From NCBI RefSeq assembly GCF_019285515.1, contig NZ_CP079095.1:744001-808000 (forward strand): a stretch of DNA of 64,000 bases. Direction: 5' to 3'. The notes under the pieces are model-generated. The model ran no database searches, was not told the DNA's origin, and saw only the letters and a list, made by a program, of their open reading frames with translations. How positions within the stretch are numbered: position 1 is the first letter of the stretch; every line of letters starts with the position of its first letter. Of the stretch, positions 2,321 through 64,000 are shown in pieces. Made by a program: the position numbers and the translations under genes. Origin of the DNA: Methylococcus sp. Mc7 (GTDB lineage Bacteria; Pseudomonadota; Gammaproteobacteria; Methylococcales; Methylococcaceae).

Positions 2321-3904
2321 TTGAGAAAACTCATCGACTCGCGGCTCGAGCAGCTCGCCCGCGCCGGGCAGGCGCATTTGCTGCGAAAAGGATTGAAGGG
2401 GCTGGAAAAGGAGAGCCTGCGGATCACCGCCGCCGGAGAAATCGCACGCACGCCGCATCCGAAGGCCCTGGGCTCGGCGCTGACCCATCCCGCCATCACC
2501 ACCGACTATTCCGAGGCGCTGATCGAGCTGATCACCCCGCCTTTCGAGGACAGCGCCGACACCCTGGCGGCGATGGAGGACATCCATCGCTTCGTTCACG
2601 CCAACATCGACGGCGAACTGCTGCTGGCGACCTCGATGCCCTGCCGGATCGAGGGCGACGAGAGCATCCCCATCGCGGTGTACGGCAGCTCCAACATCGG
2701 CCGGATGAAGCACATCTACCGGCGCGGCCTGGGCTACCGCTATGGCCGGGCCATGCAGGCCATCGCCGGCGTCCACTTCAATTACTCGGTGAGTGAGGAA
2801 CTCTGGCCGGCCCTGCAGACGCTGGCCGGCGACCGCCGCCCCCTGGCCGAATTCATCGCCGACCGCTATTTCGGCATGGTGCGCAACATCCAGCGCTTCG
2901 GCTGGCTGATCCTGTACCTGTTCGGCTCATCGCCCGCGATGTCCAAATCCTTCCTCACGGGGCGGGAGACGCCGCTGGCTTCGAGTTTCACCGAATTCGA
3001 CCCCGCCACCTGGCACCGTCCCTATGCCACTTCGCTGCGCATGAGCGATATCGGCTACCGTAACGACAACCAGGCCAGCCTGGACATCTCCTTCAACCGG
3101 CTCGACGACTACGTCCGCGATCTGAGCCATGCCATATCGACGCCCTATGCGCCCTACCAGGCCATCGGCGTGGAAGTGGAGGGCGAATACCGCCAGCTCA
3201 ACGCCAACATCCTGCAGATCGAAAACGAGTACTACAGCACGGTGCGCCCGAAGCAGGTCACCCGCTCCGGCGAAATGCCCACCTTGGCGCTGAAAAAGCG
3301 CGGCGTCAGTTACCTCGAACTGCGCTCGGTGGACCTGAACTGCTATCACCCGGCCGGAATCGGTCTCGAGCAGTTGAGGTTCCTGGAGACCTTCATGCTG
3401 CTGTCTTTGCTCGCCGACAGCCCGCCGATGAGTATCGAGGAGAAGAAAACCGCGGCCAACAACATGCTGGCTACCGCCTGTTGCGGACGCACGCCGGGCA
3501 TGGCGCTGATCCGGAGTGATGCCGCCGCGGATCTTCGAGCCTGGGCCAAGGAGCTGTGCGAATCCATGGCGCCGATCGCCGCCGCGCTGGACGGCGACTC
3601 GAATGGCCGGGCGTTTTCCGCCGCCCTGGAGCAGCAGTACGTGGCGATCGCCGATCCCGAACAGCATCTGCCTTCGGCCCGCATGCTGCAGGAAATGCGC
3701 GGCAACCGCGAATCCTTCGCCGAATTCGCGCAGCGGCTGTCGCTGCAGCACGCCGAGACCTTGCGCAGCCATCCTCTCGAACCCGTCAAGGCCGAGGCCA
3801 TGCGGCGCATGGCCGAAGCGTCCCTGACGGAACAGGAAGCCGTCGAGGCGAGCGATTCGCTAGCCTTCGCCGACTATCTGGAGCACTACTTCGCCCAAAC
3901 CTGA
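2321..3904 (+). CDS. gshA: Glutamate-cysteine ligase
   Basis: 527 aa, close to the 518 aa of E. coli GshA. It catalyses the ATP-dependent joining of glutamate and cysteine, the first step of glutathione synthesis, in the cytosol. Seen in the sequence: the GLEKESLRI substrate-binding start, DYSEALIELITPP, and a long middle block with VEVEGEYRQLN typical of the proteobacterial family. The start is TTG at 2321 with an AGGA box at 2308-2311; no ATG fits the conserved N-terminus. The following genes (cysH, cysB) also belong to sulfur metabolism. gshB is not in the window. Confidence 0.93.
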   Translation: MRKLIDSRLEQLARAGQAHLLRKGLKGLEKESLRITAAGEIARTPHPKALGSALTHPAITTDYSEALIELITPPFEDSADTLAAMEDIHRFVHANIDGELLLATSMPCRIEGDESIPIAVYGSSNIGRMKHIYRRGLGYRYGRAMQAIAGVHFNYSVSEELWPALQTLAGDRRPLAEFIADRYFGMVRNIQRFGWLILYLFGSSPAMSKSFLTGRETPLASSFTEFDPATWHRPYATSLRMSDIGYRNDNQASLDISFNRLDDYVRDLSHAISTPYAPYQAIGVEVEGEYRQLNANILQIENEYYSTVRPKQVTRSGEMPTLALKKRGVSYLELRSVDLNCYHPAGIGLEQLRFLETFMLLSLLADSPPMSIEEKKTAANNMLATACCGRTPGMALIRSDAAADLRAWAKELCESMAPIAAALDGDSNGRAFSAALEQQYVAIADPEQHLPSARMLQEMRGNRESFAEFAQRLSLQHAETLRSHPLEPVKAEAMRRMAEASLTEQEAVEASDSLAFADYLEHYFAQT

Positions 3905-58245: not shown

Positions 58246-59944
<1,699 letters not shown>

Positions 59945-60016
59945 ATTGAGAAAAGGAATTGTAACAGCAATTTTCAGACTTGCAAGCCCTGTTTGTCGAT
60001 CCTCGCCCCCTAACGC

Positions 60017-60445
60017 CTAGGTCTTGCCTTCCGGTCCAAAGCCCATGCGAGCCGCATCGGCCAGCGTGTGGCGTTCGAGCGCGGCCAGGAAATCTTTCCG
60101 CGCTTCGTACAGGATGGCCTTGAGGAAACAGCCCCGGTCGATCCGGCAATGGCTGGCCTTCGGATCGAAACATTCCACCAGGTTCATGTTCGGCTCGGTC
60201 AGGCGAACCACCTCGGCGATGGTGACGGTATCAGCCGGACGCGCAAGCCTCAGTCCGCCGCCCTTGCCGCGCATCGTCACGAGCAGGCCGGCGTTGGCCA
60301 GGGTGTTCACCACCTTCACCAGGTGATTCCGCGAAATCCGATAGTACTCGGCGATTTCCGGGATCGTCGCCATGCCGGGCTCCGGCAGGCGCACCAGATA
60401 GATCAGGACCCGCAGCGAGAAATCCGTGAACTGGGTCAGTTGCAT
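60017..60445 (-). CDS. nsrR: Rrf2 family repressor, NsrR-like
   Basis: 142 aa. An N-terminal winged helix (MQLTQFTDFSLRVLIYLVRL, AEYYRISRNHLVKVVNTLAN) precedes three cysteines, C92, C100 and C106, in a short segment, the Fe-S ligands of NsrR. NsrR senses nitric oxide and represses NO-removal genes. It is divergent from a truncated haemoglobin and its reductase, and an NsrR-like site lies between. ATG at 60445 matches the family start. Confidence 0.87.
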   Translation of the reverse strand: MQLTQFTDFSLRVLIYLVRLPEPGMATIPEIAEYYRISRNHLVKVVNTLANAGLLVTMRGKGGGLRLARPADTVTIAEVVRLTEPNMNLVECFDPKASHCRIDRGCFLKAILYEARKDFLAALERHTLADAARMGFGPEGKT

Positions 60446-60500
60446 GGCTGATACCTGTTTTGGCTGCTGACGATAGAATAACACGCTCTCGGAGAAGGAC

Positions 60501-60529
60501 TTGACACGAGCTTGTATCGACTCTAAATT
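60501..60529 (+). promoter_or_regulatory. Sigma-70 promoter of the globin-reductase operon
   Basis: TTGACA at 60501-60506 and TAAATT at 60524-60529 with exactly 17 bases between. The transcript would start near 60536, inside the NsrR-like site. Confidence 0.65.
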
Positions 60530-60550
60530 TGTATTTGCAATGCATCTTAT
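60527..60550. promoter_or_regulatory. Candidate NsrR operator
   Basis: On the minus strand the bases 60548-60538 read AAGATGCATTG, 10 of 11 of the E. coli NsrR half-site AAGATGCATTT. The other half (AAATACAAAT) is weaker. It overlaps the predicted start point, as expected for a repressor. Confidence 0.6.
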
Positions 60551-60604
60551 AACAGTACTCGACTCCGGTGCATCGCATTCGCATAAATCGACTAGGAGAA
60601 GATC

Positions 60605-61009
60605 ATGACCGAAAAGAAACTCGCCGACTGGTGGACCGAATCCCATGCCTCGCTCTACGCAAAACTGGGGGGAGAAGCCGCGGTGAATGCCGCCGTGGAC
60701 ATTTTCTACCGCAAGGTCCTGGCGGACCCGCGCATCAACCGCTTTTTCGAAGGGGTCGACATGGAGAAGCAGGCCGCCAAGCAGAAAGCCTTCCTGACCA
60801 TGGCTTTCGGTGGGCCGCACAATTACACCGGCATGGACATGCGGCGCGGCCACGCGCACCTGGTTCAGCAGGGCCTGAACGACTCCCACTTCGACGCCGT
60901 CATGGAACACCTGGGCGCCACCATGAAAGAGCTGAACGTGCCCGACGAATTGATCGCGCAGGCGGCGGCGATCGCCGAGAGCACGCGCAACGACGTGCTC
61001 GGCCGCTAA
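60605..61009 (+). CDS. Group 1 truncated haemoglobin
   Basis: 134 aa. LYAKLGGEAAVNAAVDIFYR, the B10 Tyr35, and the proximal His83 in MRRGHAHLV place it in group I (GlbN type), ending NDVLGR. Such globins oxidise nitric oxide to nitrate with bound O2 when re-reduced. It is first in an operon with a reductase, 25 bases apart, under a promoter with an NsrR-like site, so NO removal is the most likely role. Confidence 0.9.
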   Translation: MTEKKLADWWTESHASLYAKLGGEAAVNAAVDIFYRKVLADPRINRFFEGVDMEKQAAKQKAFLTMAFGGPHNYTGMDMRRGHAHLVQQGLNDSHFDAVMEHLGATMKELNVPDELIAQAAAIAESTRNDVLGR

Positions 61010-61034
61010 CCGGGGAATCGACAGGAGCGCTGCC

Positions 61035-62009
61035 ATGACGAACATCAAATACGGCAGAGACACCTACCCCCTCGGCAAGGACCAGTCCGTCCTGGACTGT
61101 CTCGTCGAGCGCGGCGCGCCTGTCCCTTTTTCCTGCCGGAGCGGGGTCTGCCAGACCTGCCTGATGCGAGCCGTACGCGGCGTCCCGCCGGAGGTCTCGC
61201 AGCGGGGACTGAAAGATTCGTTGAAGGTCCAGAACTATTTCCTCGCCTGTGTCTGCCACCCCACGGAGGACCTCGAAGCGGCACTCCCGCACGAAGTCCT
61301 GAGTTCGGTACCGGCGACCGTCACAGCGCTGGAACCGCTCAACGGCGAAATCATGCACGTGGCGCTTGAATGCCACGCCCCCTTGGAATACCGCGCCGGA
61401 CAGTTCATCAATTTGTTCCGCGACCCCACGCTCGGACGCAGCTATTCCCTGGCCAGCGTGCCGCAGCAGGACGCGCATTTGCATCTGCACGTGCGGCGGC
61501 TGCCGCAAGGAAAAGTCAGCGGCTGGATACACGAAGAACTGCGCACCGGCCAGACCGTGGAAATTCGGGGTCCGAGCGGCGACTGTTTCTACGTTCCCGG
61601 CCGGCCGGCGCAGGAAATCGTGCTGATAGGCACCGGCTCCGGGTTGGCCCCGCTGTACGGCATCCTGCGCGACGCCCTGGATCGAGGACACAGCGGGCCG
61701 ATCCGCTTGTTCCACGGCAGCCGGAACCGCGCGGGCCTTTATCTGACCGGCGAGCTGCGGGATCTGGCGAGGGAACATTCGAATTTCGACTACGTGCCCT
61801 GCGTCTCCGGTGAGGAACCGGCGCCGGGCCTGGCGGGAGGACGCGCCCACGAGATAGCTTTCCGGGAGGTCGCGGATTTCAAGGACAAGCGGCTGTTCCT
61901 CTGCGGCCATCCGGAGATGGTGAGCGCCGCGAAAAAGCGCGCCTTCCTGGCGGGCGCCGCGATGAAGGATATCTACGCCGATCCCTTCAACGTGAACGCC
62001 GCGCCCTAG
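61035..62009 (+). CDS. 2Fe-2S/FAD NADH oxidoreductase
   Basis: 324 aa. Plant-type ferredoxin domain with C34, C39, C42 and C72, then an FAD domain (RSYSLA, 135-140) and an NAD domain (LIGTGSGLAPLYGILRDAL, LFLCGHPEMV). This is the layout of reductase components of phenol hydroxylase, methane monooxygenase and toluene oxygenases. Beside a truncated haemoglobin it is probably its electron donor. Its 3' end overlaps the convergent ClC gene by 23 bases. Confidence 0.88.
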   Translation: MTNIKYGRDTYPLGKDQSVLDCLVERGAPVPFSCRSGVCQTCLMRAVRGVPPEVSQRGLKDSLKVQNYFLACVCHPTEDLEAALPHEVLSSVPATVTALEPLNGEIMHVALECHAPLEYRAGQFINLFRDPTLGRSYSLASVPQQDAHLHLHVRRLPQGKVSGWIHEELRTGQTVEIRGPSGDCFYVPGRPAQEIVLIGTGSGLAPLYGILRDALDRGHSGPIRLFHGSRNRAGLYLTGELRDLAREHSNFDYVPCVSGEEPAPGLAGGRAHEIAFREVADFKDKRLFLCGHPEMVSAAKKRAFLAGAAMKDIYADPFNVNAAP

Positions 62010-63318
62010 TCCTGCGCGGTTCCCGCTCCAGCAGCGCTTCGTAGATCGGCAGATCGTGCAGGCGGTCGGCGACCACCAGCGCCGCGAAGCAGGCCGCCAG
62101 CAGCGGCAGGATGAGCGCATAGTTGCCGGTCATTTCGATCATCAGCACCACGCCGGTGAGCGGCGCCCTCACCACACCGGTAAAAAACGCCGCCATCCCT
62201 GCCACCGCGAAAACCTTGGGCTCCACGGGCAGCAACGGTGCCATCTGCTGGATCAACATTCCGGAACCGAGCCCGAGCAGGGCGCCCAGCAGCAGTATCG
62301 GCGAGAAGATGCCGCCGGCCGCGCCGGTGGCGTAACTGCCGATGGTCAGAACGAAGCGGGCGGCGAAGTAGAGCGCCATCAGGTTCAGCGCCGGGCTGAC
62401 TTCGCCGTCCAGCATCCCGCCGACCAAGCCCTGGCCCCCGCCCAACAGTTCCGGCGCCAGCCAGCCGACCAGCCCGATCGAGCCGCCCCAGCCCAGCCAG
62501 AGCGCTTTGCGCGGCCCGGCCCGGCTCGGGCGCAGCCGCTGTACCGCCAGCAAGGCACGATTGAAAGCGACGCCGAGCAAACCGCACGCCATGCCCAGCC
62601 CGACGAATGCCGGCAGCAGCGAGAGTGGGGGGAGAACGGAAATCTCGACCCGGAACGCCGGCAACTCGCCCAAGACCAGACGGCAGACCGTGTCCGCAAT
62701 GAGGCAAGCGATCGCCGCGGCGAAAAACTCCAGAGAAGAACATTGTCCGCGCAGTTCCTCGACCACGAATATCAGTCCCGAAAGCGGCGCGTTGAAGGCG
62801 GCCGCCAGGCCGGCCCCGGCCCCAGCCGCGATCAGGGCGCGGCGTTGGTCGGGGGAGGAGGAAAACGTCGTCGCCACGCCTTCCGCGACCGCCCCGCCCA
62901 TCTGCACGGTCGGGCCTTCCCGCCCCAGAGCGAGCCCGCCGCCGATGCCGATCAGGCCGCTCAGGAACTTGACGGCCAACACCCTGGCCCAACGGAACCC
63001 GTGCAAGCCCATCAGCACCGCCTTCACCTGCGGAACACCGCTGCCGGCCGCTTCCGGTGCGAACCGCTCGACCAGCCAGGCCGCCAGGAATACGCACAGG
63101 GCCGAGGCCGCCGCGGCGACGGCCAGTCCCGGTGCGCCGCAGCCGTGCGCGAAGTCCTGCAGCCGGGCGCGCCATGCTTCGCCGGCATCCATCCCGAGAT
63201 GGAAGCCGACCGCGGCGCACCCGGCCAGCAGGCCCACCAGCAAGGCGCGCGGAAACAGGCGCCGCCGTTCCCGGTTCAGGCGGATGAACCGCTCCTCTTC
63301 AGTCGTCCGGGAAGACAT
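61987..63318 (-). CDS. ClC family chloride channel/transporter
   Basis: 443 aa, about ten membrane spans. Selectivity motifs GSGVPQVKAVLMG and GREGPTVQMGGA (with the gating Glu) and the late GAAGGIFSPILLLGALLG are present, so it can be an H+/Cl- exchanger. No CBS domains follow. I chose ATG at 63318. Its start overlaps the end of the DUF2490 gene by 20 bases, on the same strand. Confidence 0.9.
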   Translation of the reverse strand: MSSRTTEEERFIRLNRERRRLFPRALLVGLLAGCAAVGFHLGMDAGEAWRARLQDFAHGCGAPGLAVAAAASALCVFLAAWLVERFAPEAAGSGVPQVKAVLMGLHGFRWARVLAVKFLSGLIGIGGGLALGREGPTVQMGGAVAEGVATTFSSSPDQRRALIAAGAGAGLAAAFNAPLSGLIFVVEELRGQCSSLEFFAAAIACLIADTVCRLVLGELPAFRVEISVLPPLSLLPAFVGLGMACGLLGVAFNRALLAVQRLRPSRAGPRKALWLGWGGSIGLVGWLAPELLGGGQGLVGGMLDGEVSPALNLMALYFAARFVLTIGSYATGAAGGIFSPILLLGALLGLGSGMLIQQMAPLLPVEPKVFAVAGMAAFFTGVVRAPLTGVVLMIEMTGNYALILPLLAACFAALVVADRLHDLPIYEALLEREPRRTRARRSR

Positions 63319-64000
63319 AGTGAAGATCGAACTGAATGTTGTGCGTCCAGACATCGGCGGTACCCGGCGTGCCTGCCATGTATTGGCCCAGATAGCCGAA
63401 ATCCACGCCGAGACGCCCTGTCAGGCGATAGGTCACGCCGGACAGGATCCGGTTCTGGCAGAATCCGGCCGGCCCGAATACGCTGTAGTTCGGACACACC
63501 ATGAGCTCGTCCCCGACGTAAACGTCCACCCCATCCGCCACGAAACGCAAGGGATGGCTCCAAGTCACCGCCTCGCGGAAGCGGATACCGACTTCACCTC
63601 CCTGCTGCGCGATCCTCTCCTCGAGCCTGGTCCTGCTGACCAGCTTCCCCCCACCCGCTTCATGGGTGAACACCGCCTCCAGATACGGGCGATTTTCCTG
63701 ATAAGCCGGCTGGCCCAACGGATGCAGCCAAGTGTGAGCGTAACCGATGCCGAGTAGGAAGTGGGGGTAGACCTGATAGCCCAACCCCACCCAAAGCAAA
63801 TCTTCGTACATGCGCCAGGCATTCGGCGGATCGTCGTCGCGCAGACGGACCTGATCCCGCACATACCACTTGAATTTGCGCCAGTCCGGAGCCACGCTAC
63901 CCAGGCTGCCCAGCAAGCTGAGCGAGGTCCAGGCGCCGGCCATGCCCTCGATTCCGTCGGCGCCGACGGGTTGGCACGATGCCATCAGCAGCGATGCTCC
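63299..64000 (-). CDS. DUF2490 family outer-membrane-like protein (partial)
   Basis: At least 233 codons; the 5' end is beyond the window, since the frame stays open to the edge through the residues GASLLMASCQPVGADG, which look like the end of a signal peptide. The mature part has alternating beta strands (FLLGIGYAHTWLHP, VSRTRLEERI, LGVDFGYLGQYM, NIQFDLHYVF), typical of DUF2490 beta-barrel proteins of the outer membrane. Function unknown. Confidence 0.7.
   Translation of the reverse strand, partial: GASLLMASCQPVGADGIEGMAGAWTSLSLLGSLGSVAPDWRKFKWYVRDQVRLRDDDPPNAWRMYEDLLWVGLGYQVYPHFLLGIGYAHTWLHPLGQPAYQENRPYLEAVFTHEAGGGKLVSRTRLEERIAQQGGEVGIRFREAVTWSHPLRFVADGVDVYVGDELMVCPNYSVFGPAGFCQNRILSGVTYRLTGRLGVDFGYLGQYMAGTPGTADVWTHNIQFDLHYVFPDD

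Follow-up and report, generated by a model that had tools for sequence, protein, structure and literature searches.

The closest described counterpart of the locus presented here is the cyanoglobin-ferredoxin reductase operon glbN-lpg2536 of Legionella pneumophila, a predicted NsrR target for which a role like that of Hmp was proposed (Rodionov 2005, PMC1274295) and for which the proposal was later repeated (Gardner 2012, PMC3820574). The first of these papers also describes a cgb-COG0543-COG0446 operon in Acidithiobacillus ferrooxidans (PMC1274295). A sequence-only reading of the present DNA had held that no well-described system of such make-up was known, a statement that the Legionella proposal and its repetition contradict. 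The Legionella operon is a sequence-based prediction, likened here to the Methylococcus operon by its published description; what the two share is a cyanoglobin-type globin and a ferredoxin reductase in one operon, predicted control by NsrR, and a setting without hmp.

A further analogue is found in Bradyrhizobium japonicum, where the globin Bjgb and the flavoprotein Flp are separate proteins encoded together, and where bjgb or flp mutants are described as sensitive to NO donors (PMC4724949). According to the same source, Bjgb is a single-domain globin akin to the globin part of Hmp, encoded in an operon for nitrate assimilation that NasS-NasT controls. For most NO dioxygenases that are single-domain haemoglobins, the electron donor is reported as unknown (PMC3820574). 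In the open-licence literature, a scope in which a subscription-journal study could be missed, we came across no biochemical study that tests a group 1 truncated haemoglobin (trHb1) together with a reductase of this kind, nor any work on such a pair in methanotrophs apart from the papers cited.

The window analysed, a stretch of 64,000 nucleotides, comes from the complete 4.0 Mb genome of Methylococcus sp. Mc7. Its positions 60017-62009 comprise a divergent Rrf2 repressor gene, a trHb1 globin gene and a 2Fe-2S/FAD/NAD reductase gene, and thereby correspond to the unit described in PMC1274295, with a globin-reductase operon, an NsrR site and no hmp found in the genome; the text of that paper makes no mention of Methylococcus. 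This type of operon was thus already predicted in 2005, and what is new here is the support for its breadth and for a dedicated reductase subfamily. On the evidence of gene families and their arrangement, the operon probably specifies an NO dioxygenase made of two proteins and controlled by a repressor that senses NO.

Organisation of the locus

The globin and reductase frames lie on the same strand with 25 nt between the globin stop codon and the reductase start, each opening with ATG behind an AGGAG-type ribosome-binding site (Table 1), in agreement with the earlier claim that they form one operon. The intergenic region between the Rrf2 and globin genes measures 159 nt and holds a single sigma-70-like promoter and an NsrR-type palindrome. 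Methylococcus capsulatus Texas (L065) is the nearest named relative among the best 80 of 569, with identities of 96% for the globin, 89% for the reductase and 96% for the Rrf2 protein, and a DNA identity of 88% over 59868-64000.

Two neighbouring features were also recorded. Within 58246-59944, a large serine recombinase gene (Resolvase, Recombinase and Zn ribbon domains) ends on a tRNA-Met gene, and the similarity to M. capsulatus Texas starts exactly at 59868, which makes it probable that a mobile element sits at the tRNA-Met just outside the operon. On the other side, a CLC chloride channel gene (61987-63354, minus strand; PF00654, 327 bits) is convergent with the reductase gene, the last 23 nt of which it overlaps.

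Table 1. Features of the globin-reductase locus, in window coordinates
Feature	Position	Strand	Basis or remark
tRNA-Met gene	59868-59944		
NsrR-type Rrf2 repressor, 142 aa	60017..60445	-	PF02082; divergent from globin gene
Sigma-70-type promoter TTGACA-17-TAAATT	60501..60529	+	Sequence pattern
NsrR-type predicted operator palindrome TTTGTATTTGCAATGCATC	60528..60546	+	12/14 consensus positions; overlaps -10 hexamer
Ribosome-binding site AGGAGA, globin gene	60594..60599	+	Sequence
Group 1 truncated haemoglobin (trHb1), 134 aa	60605..61009	+	PF01152
Ribosome-binding site AGGAG, reductase gene	61023..61027	+	Sequence
2Fe-2S / FAD / NAD(P)H reductase, 324 aa, globin partner	61035..62009	+	Fer2 + FAD_binding_6 + NAD_binding_1

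The globin

The globin matches the bacterial-like globin family PF01152 at 71.7 bits (cut-off 21), and its best solved relatives are cyanoglobins (5.9e-35) and other group 1 truncated haemoglobins. Five residues, Y35, Q56, K59, Q60 and H83, are invariant in 20/20 aligned paired globins; we take them to occupy helix positions B10, E7, E10, E11 and F8, respectively, and these assignments agree with the cyanoglobin alignment. The proximal His F8 and the distal Tyr B10 and Gln E11 expected of a trHb1 are present, and the protein is, as had been proposed, a group 1 truncated globin. Position E10 is the haem-binding His of cyanoglobin, where the paired globins carry Lys. In mycobacterial HbN, the TyrB10-GlnE11 pair has been discussed in connection with NO dioxygenation (PMC3493545).

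These residues bear on an alternative according to which the pair is induced by NO but has no dioxygenase activity, and instead reduces NO, or nitrite or peroxide, when oxygen is low, or traps NO as haem nitrosyl. Control of the NsrR type leaves the type of chemistry undefined, and peroxidase activity has been described for some truncated globins (PMC4319818). The invariant Lys E10 could moreover ligate haem and slow ligand access, as a distal lysine binds haem in Chlamydomonas THB1, yet in vitro NO dioxygenase activity was still seen for THB1 despite that lysine (PMC4304232). With TyrB10 and GlnE11 invariant in every aligned paired globin, we consider such non-dioxygenase chemistry unlikely. 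The named organisms that carry the pair belong to what we take to be largely aerobic genera, a point that also counts against a role at low oxygen.

Besides the globin of the operon, the genome encodes two further truncated globins, consistent with the remark that M. capsulatus has all three truncated-globin classes (PMC1457004). In a Methyloprofundus methanotroph, a group I trHb ranked among the ten most transcribed genes and was tied to NO by the authors (PMC8788690).

The reductase and its natural fusion to a globin

The reductase is built of Fer2, FAD_binding_6 and NAD_binding_1 domains, with the four Fer2 cysteines (C34, C39, C42 and C72) and the R135-Y137-S138 residues invariant in 25/25 aligned relatives. 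The same domain order is found in component C of methane monooxygenase (MMO) and in aromatic oxygenase reductases (MmoC, BenC, T4MO reductase and the GcoB-type 5ogx), which are also its best solved relatives, and its description as a methane-monooxygenase-like 2Fe-2S/FAD reductase was thus upheld, with MmoC among the best models. It is not MmoC proper: its scores lie far below the equivalog cut-offs of the MmoC model NF045803 (132.7 bits, cut-off 500) and the BenC model (120.5 bits, cut-off 430), and its gene adjoins a globin gene, not an oxygenase gene. The Hmp model gave 72.7 bits and matched positions 183-388 of 399 only. When a profile of the pair reductase was run over 274 genomes (eight candidates scored per genome), 42 matches reached at least 287 bits and the next best had 246; by these scores, the reductase is a sharply separate subfamily.

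The MMO component C domain order and the MmoC score could also be read as pointing to oxygen handling, with a globin that stores or delivers O2, for example to methane monooxygenase, and a reductase that supplies a monooxygenase or maintains the globin in the ferrous state; indeed, truncated globins of groups II and III in other methanotrophs have been proposed to carry O2 to MMO (PMC11102522). The genome, however, has a separate MmoC-like candidate that is closer to MmoC, and which scored 156 bits against the pair-reductase profile vs 473 for the reductase of the operon. Since the pair also stands under an NsrR-type predicted operator and is common in records not titled as methanotrophs (Sideroxydans, Gallionella, Ferrovum), we regard oxygen handling as quite improbable.

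The two partners also occur as one protein. A natural fusion was found in 7/24 genomes of a single order, all with one genus label (L166, L172-L177); in L166:2168-3757 (minus strand), Fer2, FAD, NAD and Bac_globin domains follow one another in a chain of 530 aa with the globin at the C-terminus. All seven frames match both the reductase and the globin profiles, one of them being cut at a contig start. In the fused globin, the distal and proximal sites still carry Tyr, Lys-Gln and His. This domain has diverged to 27% identity to the globin of the window, and the L166 genome also has a separate globin-reductase pair. Relative to flavohaemoglobin the domain order is reversed (reductase-globin). 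Despite its divergent globin domain, the fusion is good evidence, at the level of gene structure, that reductase and globin work together.

Promoter, operator and repressor

Within 60000-62200, a search for sigma-70-like sites gave the TTGACA-17-TAAATT promoter and no other (0.4 expected), and its -35 and -10 hexamers are both identical in M. capsulatus Texas, in line with the good promoter that had been claimed. The operator was scored against the consensus gATGyAT-N5-ATrCATc, with 14 scored positions, taken from PMC1274295. At this target promoter the palindrome TTTGTATTTGCAATGCATC agrees at 12 of the 14, the right half being the better one; the NsrR-like site with one good half that had been noted is therefore present, with bounds of 60528-60546, not 60527-60550. 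As a bare pattern it is not significant, with 2 matches in the window at up to 2 mismatches vs 2.9 expected. The whole genome has 19 NsrR-type sites at 2 mismatches, that of the window among them and none better (control 0), and no recognisable NO gene was seen by eye near 5 of the 18 other sites. The weight of the operator comes from its placement over the promoter and its conservation upstream of homologous pairs.

This conservation was surveyed in 148 regions, kept after upstream regions shorter than 60 nt and repeats of the last 60 nt had been dropped; the intergenic stretch (up to 400 nt) was scanned if the Rrf2 gene was divergent, and 250 nt otherwise, with first-order Markov resamples as controls (mean best palindrome score 9.0/14). 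A palindrome of at least 11/14 formed a footprint in 41/44 intergenic regions with a divergent Rrf2 gene, and reached at least 12/14 in 36/44. The corresponding counts (at least 11/14) were 23/56 upstream regions for pairs with no Rrf2 gene nearby and 2/8 for pairs with Rrf2 downstream, from which it follows that NsrR control is not universal. Upstream of globins lacking the reductase, the palindrome appeared in 12/37 regions, including 3/3 where Rrf2 was divergent. The predicted link between NsrR and the globin operon is thus strong where the repressor gene adjoins and partial elsewhere.

The repressor itself matches PF02082 at 114.6 bits (cut-off 30), and its best NCBIfam model is NsrR (NF008240, 138.4 bits); as the equivalog cut-off of 182 is not reached, we name it NsrR-type, not NsrR. 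This shortfall, together with a RirA score of 105.8 bits, leaves room for an iron or redox sensor in place of an NO sensor, in which case the operon would be an iron- or redox-stress system. NsrR nevertheless leads RirA by 33 bits, the DNA motif is an NsrR palindrome, and the best solved relative is NsrR 5n07, with a profile match of 1e-28 vs 1.7e-14 for the next Rrf2 protein once the NsrR variant 5n08 is set aside. Furthermore, D8, C92, C100 and C106 are invariant in 17/17 aligned relatives, and the cluster ligands of Streptomyces coelicolor NsrR are the same set, Asp8 and three Cys (PMC9338935). We therefore judge the iron or redox sensor very unlikely, and the NsrR-like repressor of the sequence-only reading is supported by best model, operator and ligands. 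Of the three remaining Rrf2 proteins in the genome, two score strongly, one being an IscR and one a SUF regulator, and the last matched no model at 1e-10.

Conservation of the pair and its relation to Hmp

In a class sample of 274 genomes, 52 had a globin match at 1e-10, giving 63 strong globin domains, 10 of them halves of tandem two-globin genes. The reductase lay directly downstream of 39/53 non-tandem trHb1 genes, and of 36/43 at 60% identity or more; the other 14/53 had no such reductase adjoining. In a named sample, which leans to close homologues because it consists of the best 80 of 569 relatives, the reductase followed 74/77 globins, 36 of these with a divergent Rrf2 gene as well (4/90 globins with less than 400 nt downstream were left out of the count). 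Seen from the reductase, 37/42 subfamily members in the 274 genomes adjoin a trHb1 gene, adjacency being judged by eye, and they span 27 family labels; among the matches listed, none of the lower-scoring reductases (246 bits or less) does so. Of the five exceptions, one is a contig-end fragment (G001), one is fused to a truncated-globin domain (L166), one has a hemerythrin neighbour (L167), one lies near a COX1-family gene (L169) and one has a DmsC-family neighbour (L168). Judged from these neighbourhoods, globin and reductase are a conserved, widespread unit with a dedicated reductase subfamily.

Sideroxydans-, Gallionella- and Ferrovum-titled records commonly carry the pair, and a role confined to methanotrophs was rejected on that account.

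No Hmp globin part was found in the Methylococcus genome, where four matches to Hmp were all confined to its reductase part and one of them was the reductase of the operon; as a control for the search, Hmp exceeded the cut-off in 2/14 control genomes. In the class sample (six candidates scored per genome), 20 genomes had a full-length Hmp match. These included 0/37 pair genomes vs 2.7 expected (P 0.049) and 0/50 trHb1 genomes vs 3.6 expected (P 0.015), both with kinship ignored, and the mutual exclusion of Hmp and the pair is weak.

Hmp and the operon share the presumed reaction, the NAD(P)H to FAD to haem path and control by NsrR. In Hmp, however, a full-length globin and the reductase form a single chain that lacks a 2Fe-2S domain, whereas the operon has two genes, a truncated PF01152 globin and an extra Fer2 domain, and so is not a flavohaemoglobin. 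The label of a split flavohaemoglobin fits by presumed function and fails by descent; we discarded the idea that an Hmp gene had literally been split, the globin being of the truncated family and the reductase nearer to the MmoC/BenC type (132.7 bits for MmoC vs 72.7 for Hmp).

Proposed function

By analogy with the families to which the proteins belong, the sensing and oxidation of NO, and the passage of electrons from reductase to globin, may be pictured as follows. Without NO, NsrR with its iron-sulphur cluster would occupy the palindrome (60528-60546) and block the promoter (60501-60529). NO would damage the cluster, NsrR would leave the DNA, and globin and reductase would be made together, so that the operon is presumably NO-induced. 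Ferrous oxy-globin would then convert NO to nitrate and itself become ferric, and the reductase would re-reduce the haem with electrons drawn from NAD(P)H and relayed via FAD and 2Fe-2S.

The NO-dioxygenase reading is supported by the dedicated reductase, the fusions, the NsrR palindrome, the cluster ligands, the invariant TyrB10-GlnE11 and the fact that Hmp was not found. Against it we count the Rrf2 score below the NsrR cut-off, the imperfect site in the window, the partial NsrR control, the 14/53 trHb1 genes without the reductase, the second halves of tandem globins, which likewise lack it, and the weak exclusion of Hmp. The tested Bradyrhizobium analogue also weighs against it, since loss of the globin Bjgb raised NO consumption, an effect attributed by the authors to NorCB induction (PMC4724949).

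More broadly, we lean towards the view that many Hmp-less Gammaproteobacteria (as GTDB defines the class), methanotrophs and iron oxidisers among them, have as their standard aerobic defence against NO a two-protein dioxygenase consisting of a trHb1 and a dedicated Fer2-FAD-NAD reductase controlled by NsrR, and that the fused reductase-globin of one genus is an independent mirror image of flavohaemoglobin. A reductase subfamily that keeps company with a single kind of globin, in some genomes within the same chain, offers a concrete electron-donor candidate in a system of two small proteins, and would show how Hmp-less bacteria, including methanotrophs that may make NO, handle NO.

Variant gene arrangements

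Some records depart from the usual layout. In L167, a hemerythrin-domain gene takes the place of the globin beside a subfamily reductase, the two genes lying at 1556-2263 and 2351-3337 (both minus strand). Tandem group 1 truncated globin domains, each tandem being one open frame in the class-sample cases, occur in L003:1051-1860, L009:1501-2292 (minus strand) and L013:1087-1908 (minus strand) with no reductase adjoining, and similar globin-domain pairs, again with the reductase not adjoining, were seen in L005, L017, L066, L070, L076, L090 and L137. Reductase-less trHb1 genes in L042, L045, L046 and L047 lie near molybdopterin oxidoreductase genes, with a Rieske protein in L045, a setting possibly related to nitrate reduction. 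Finally, L075, L092, L126, L127 and L139, mostly Methylobacter-titled, each carry a pair of neighbouring globin-reductase units in opposite orientation, accompanied by a single Rrf2 gene.
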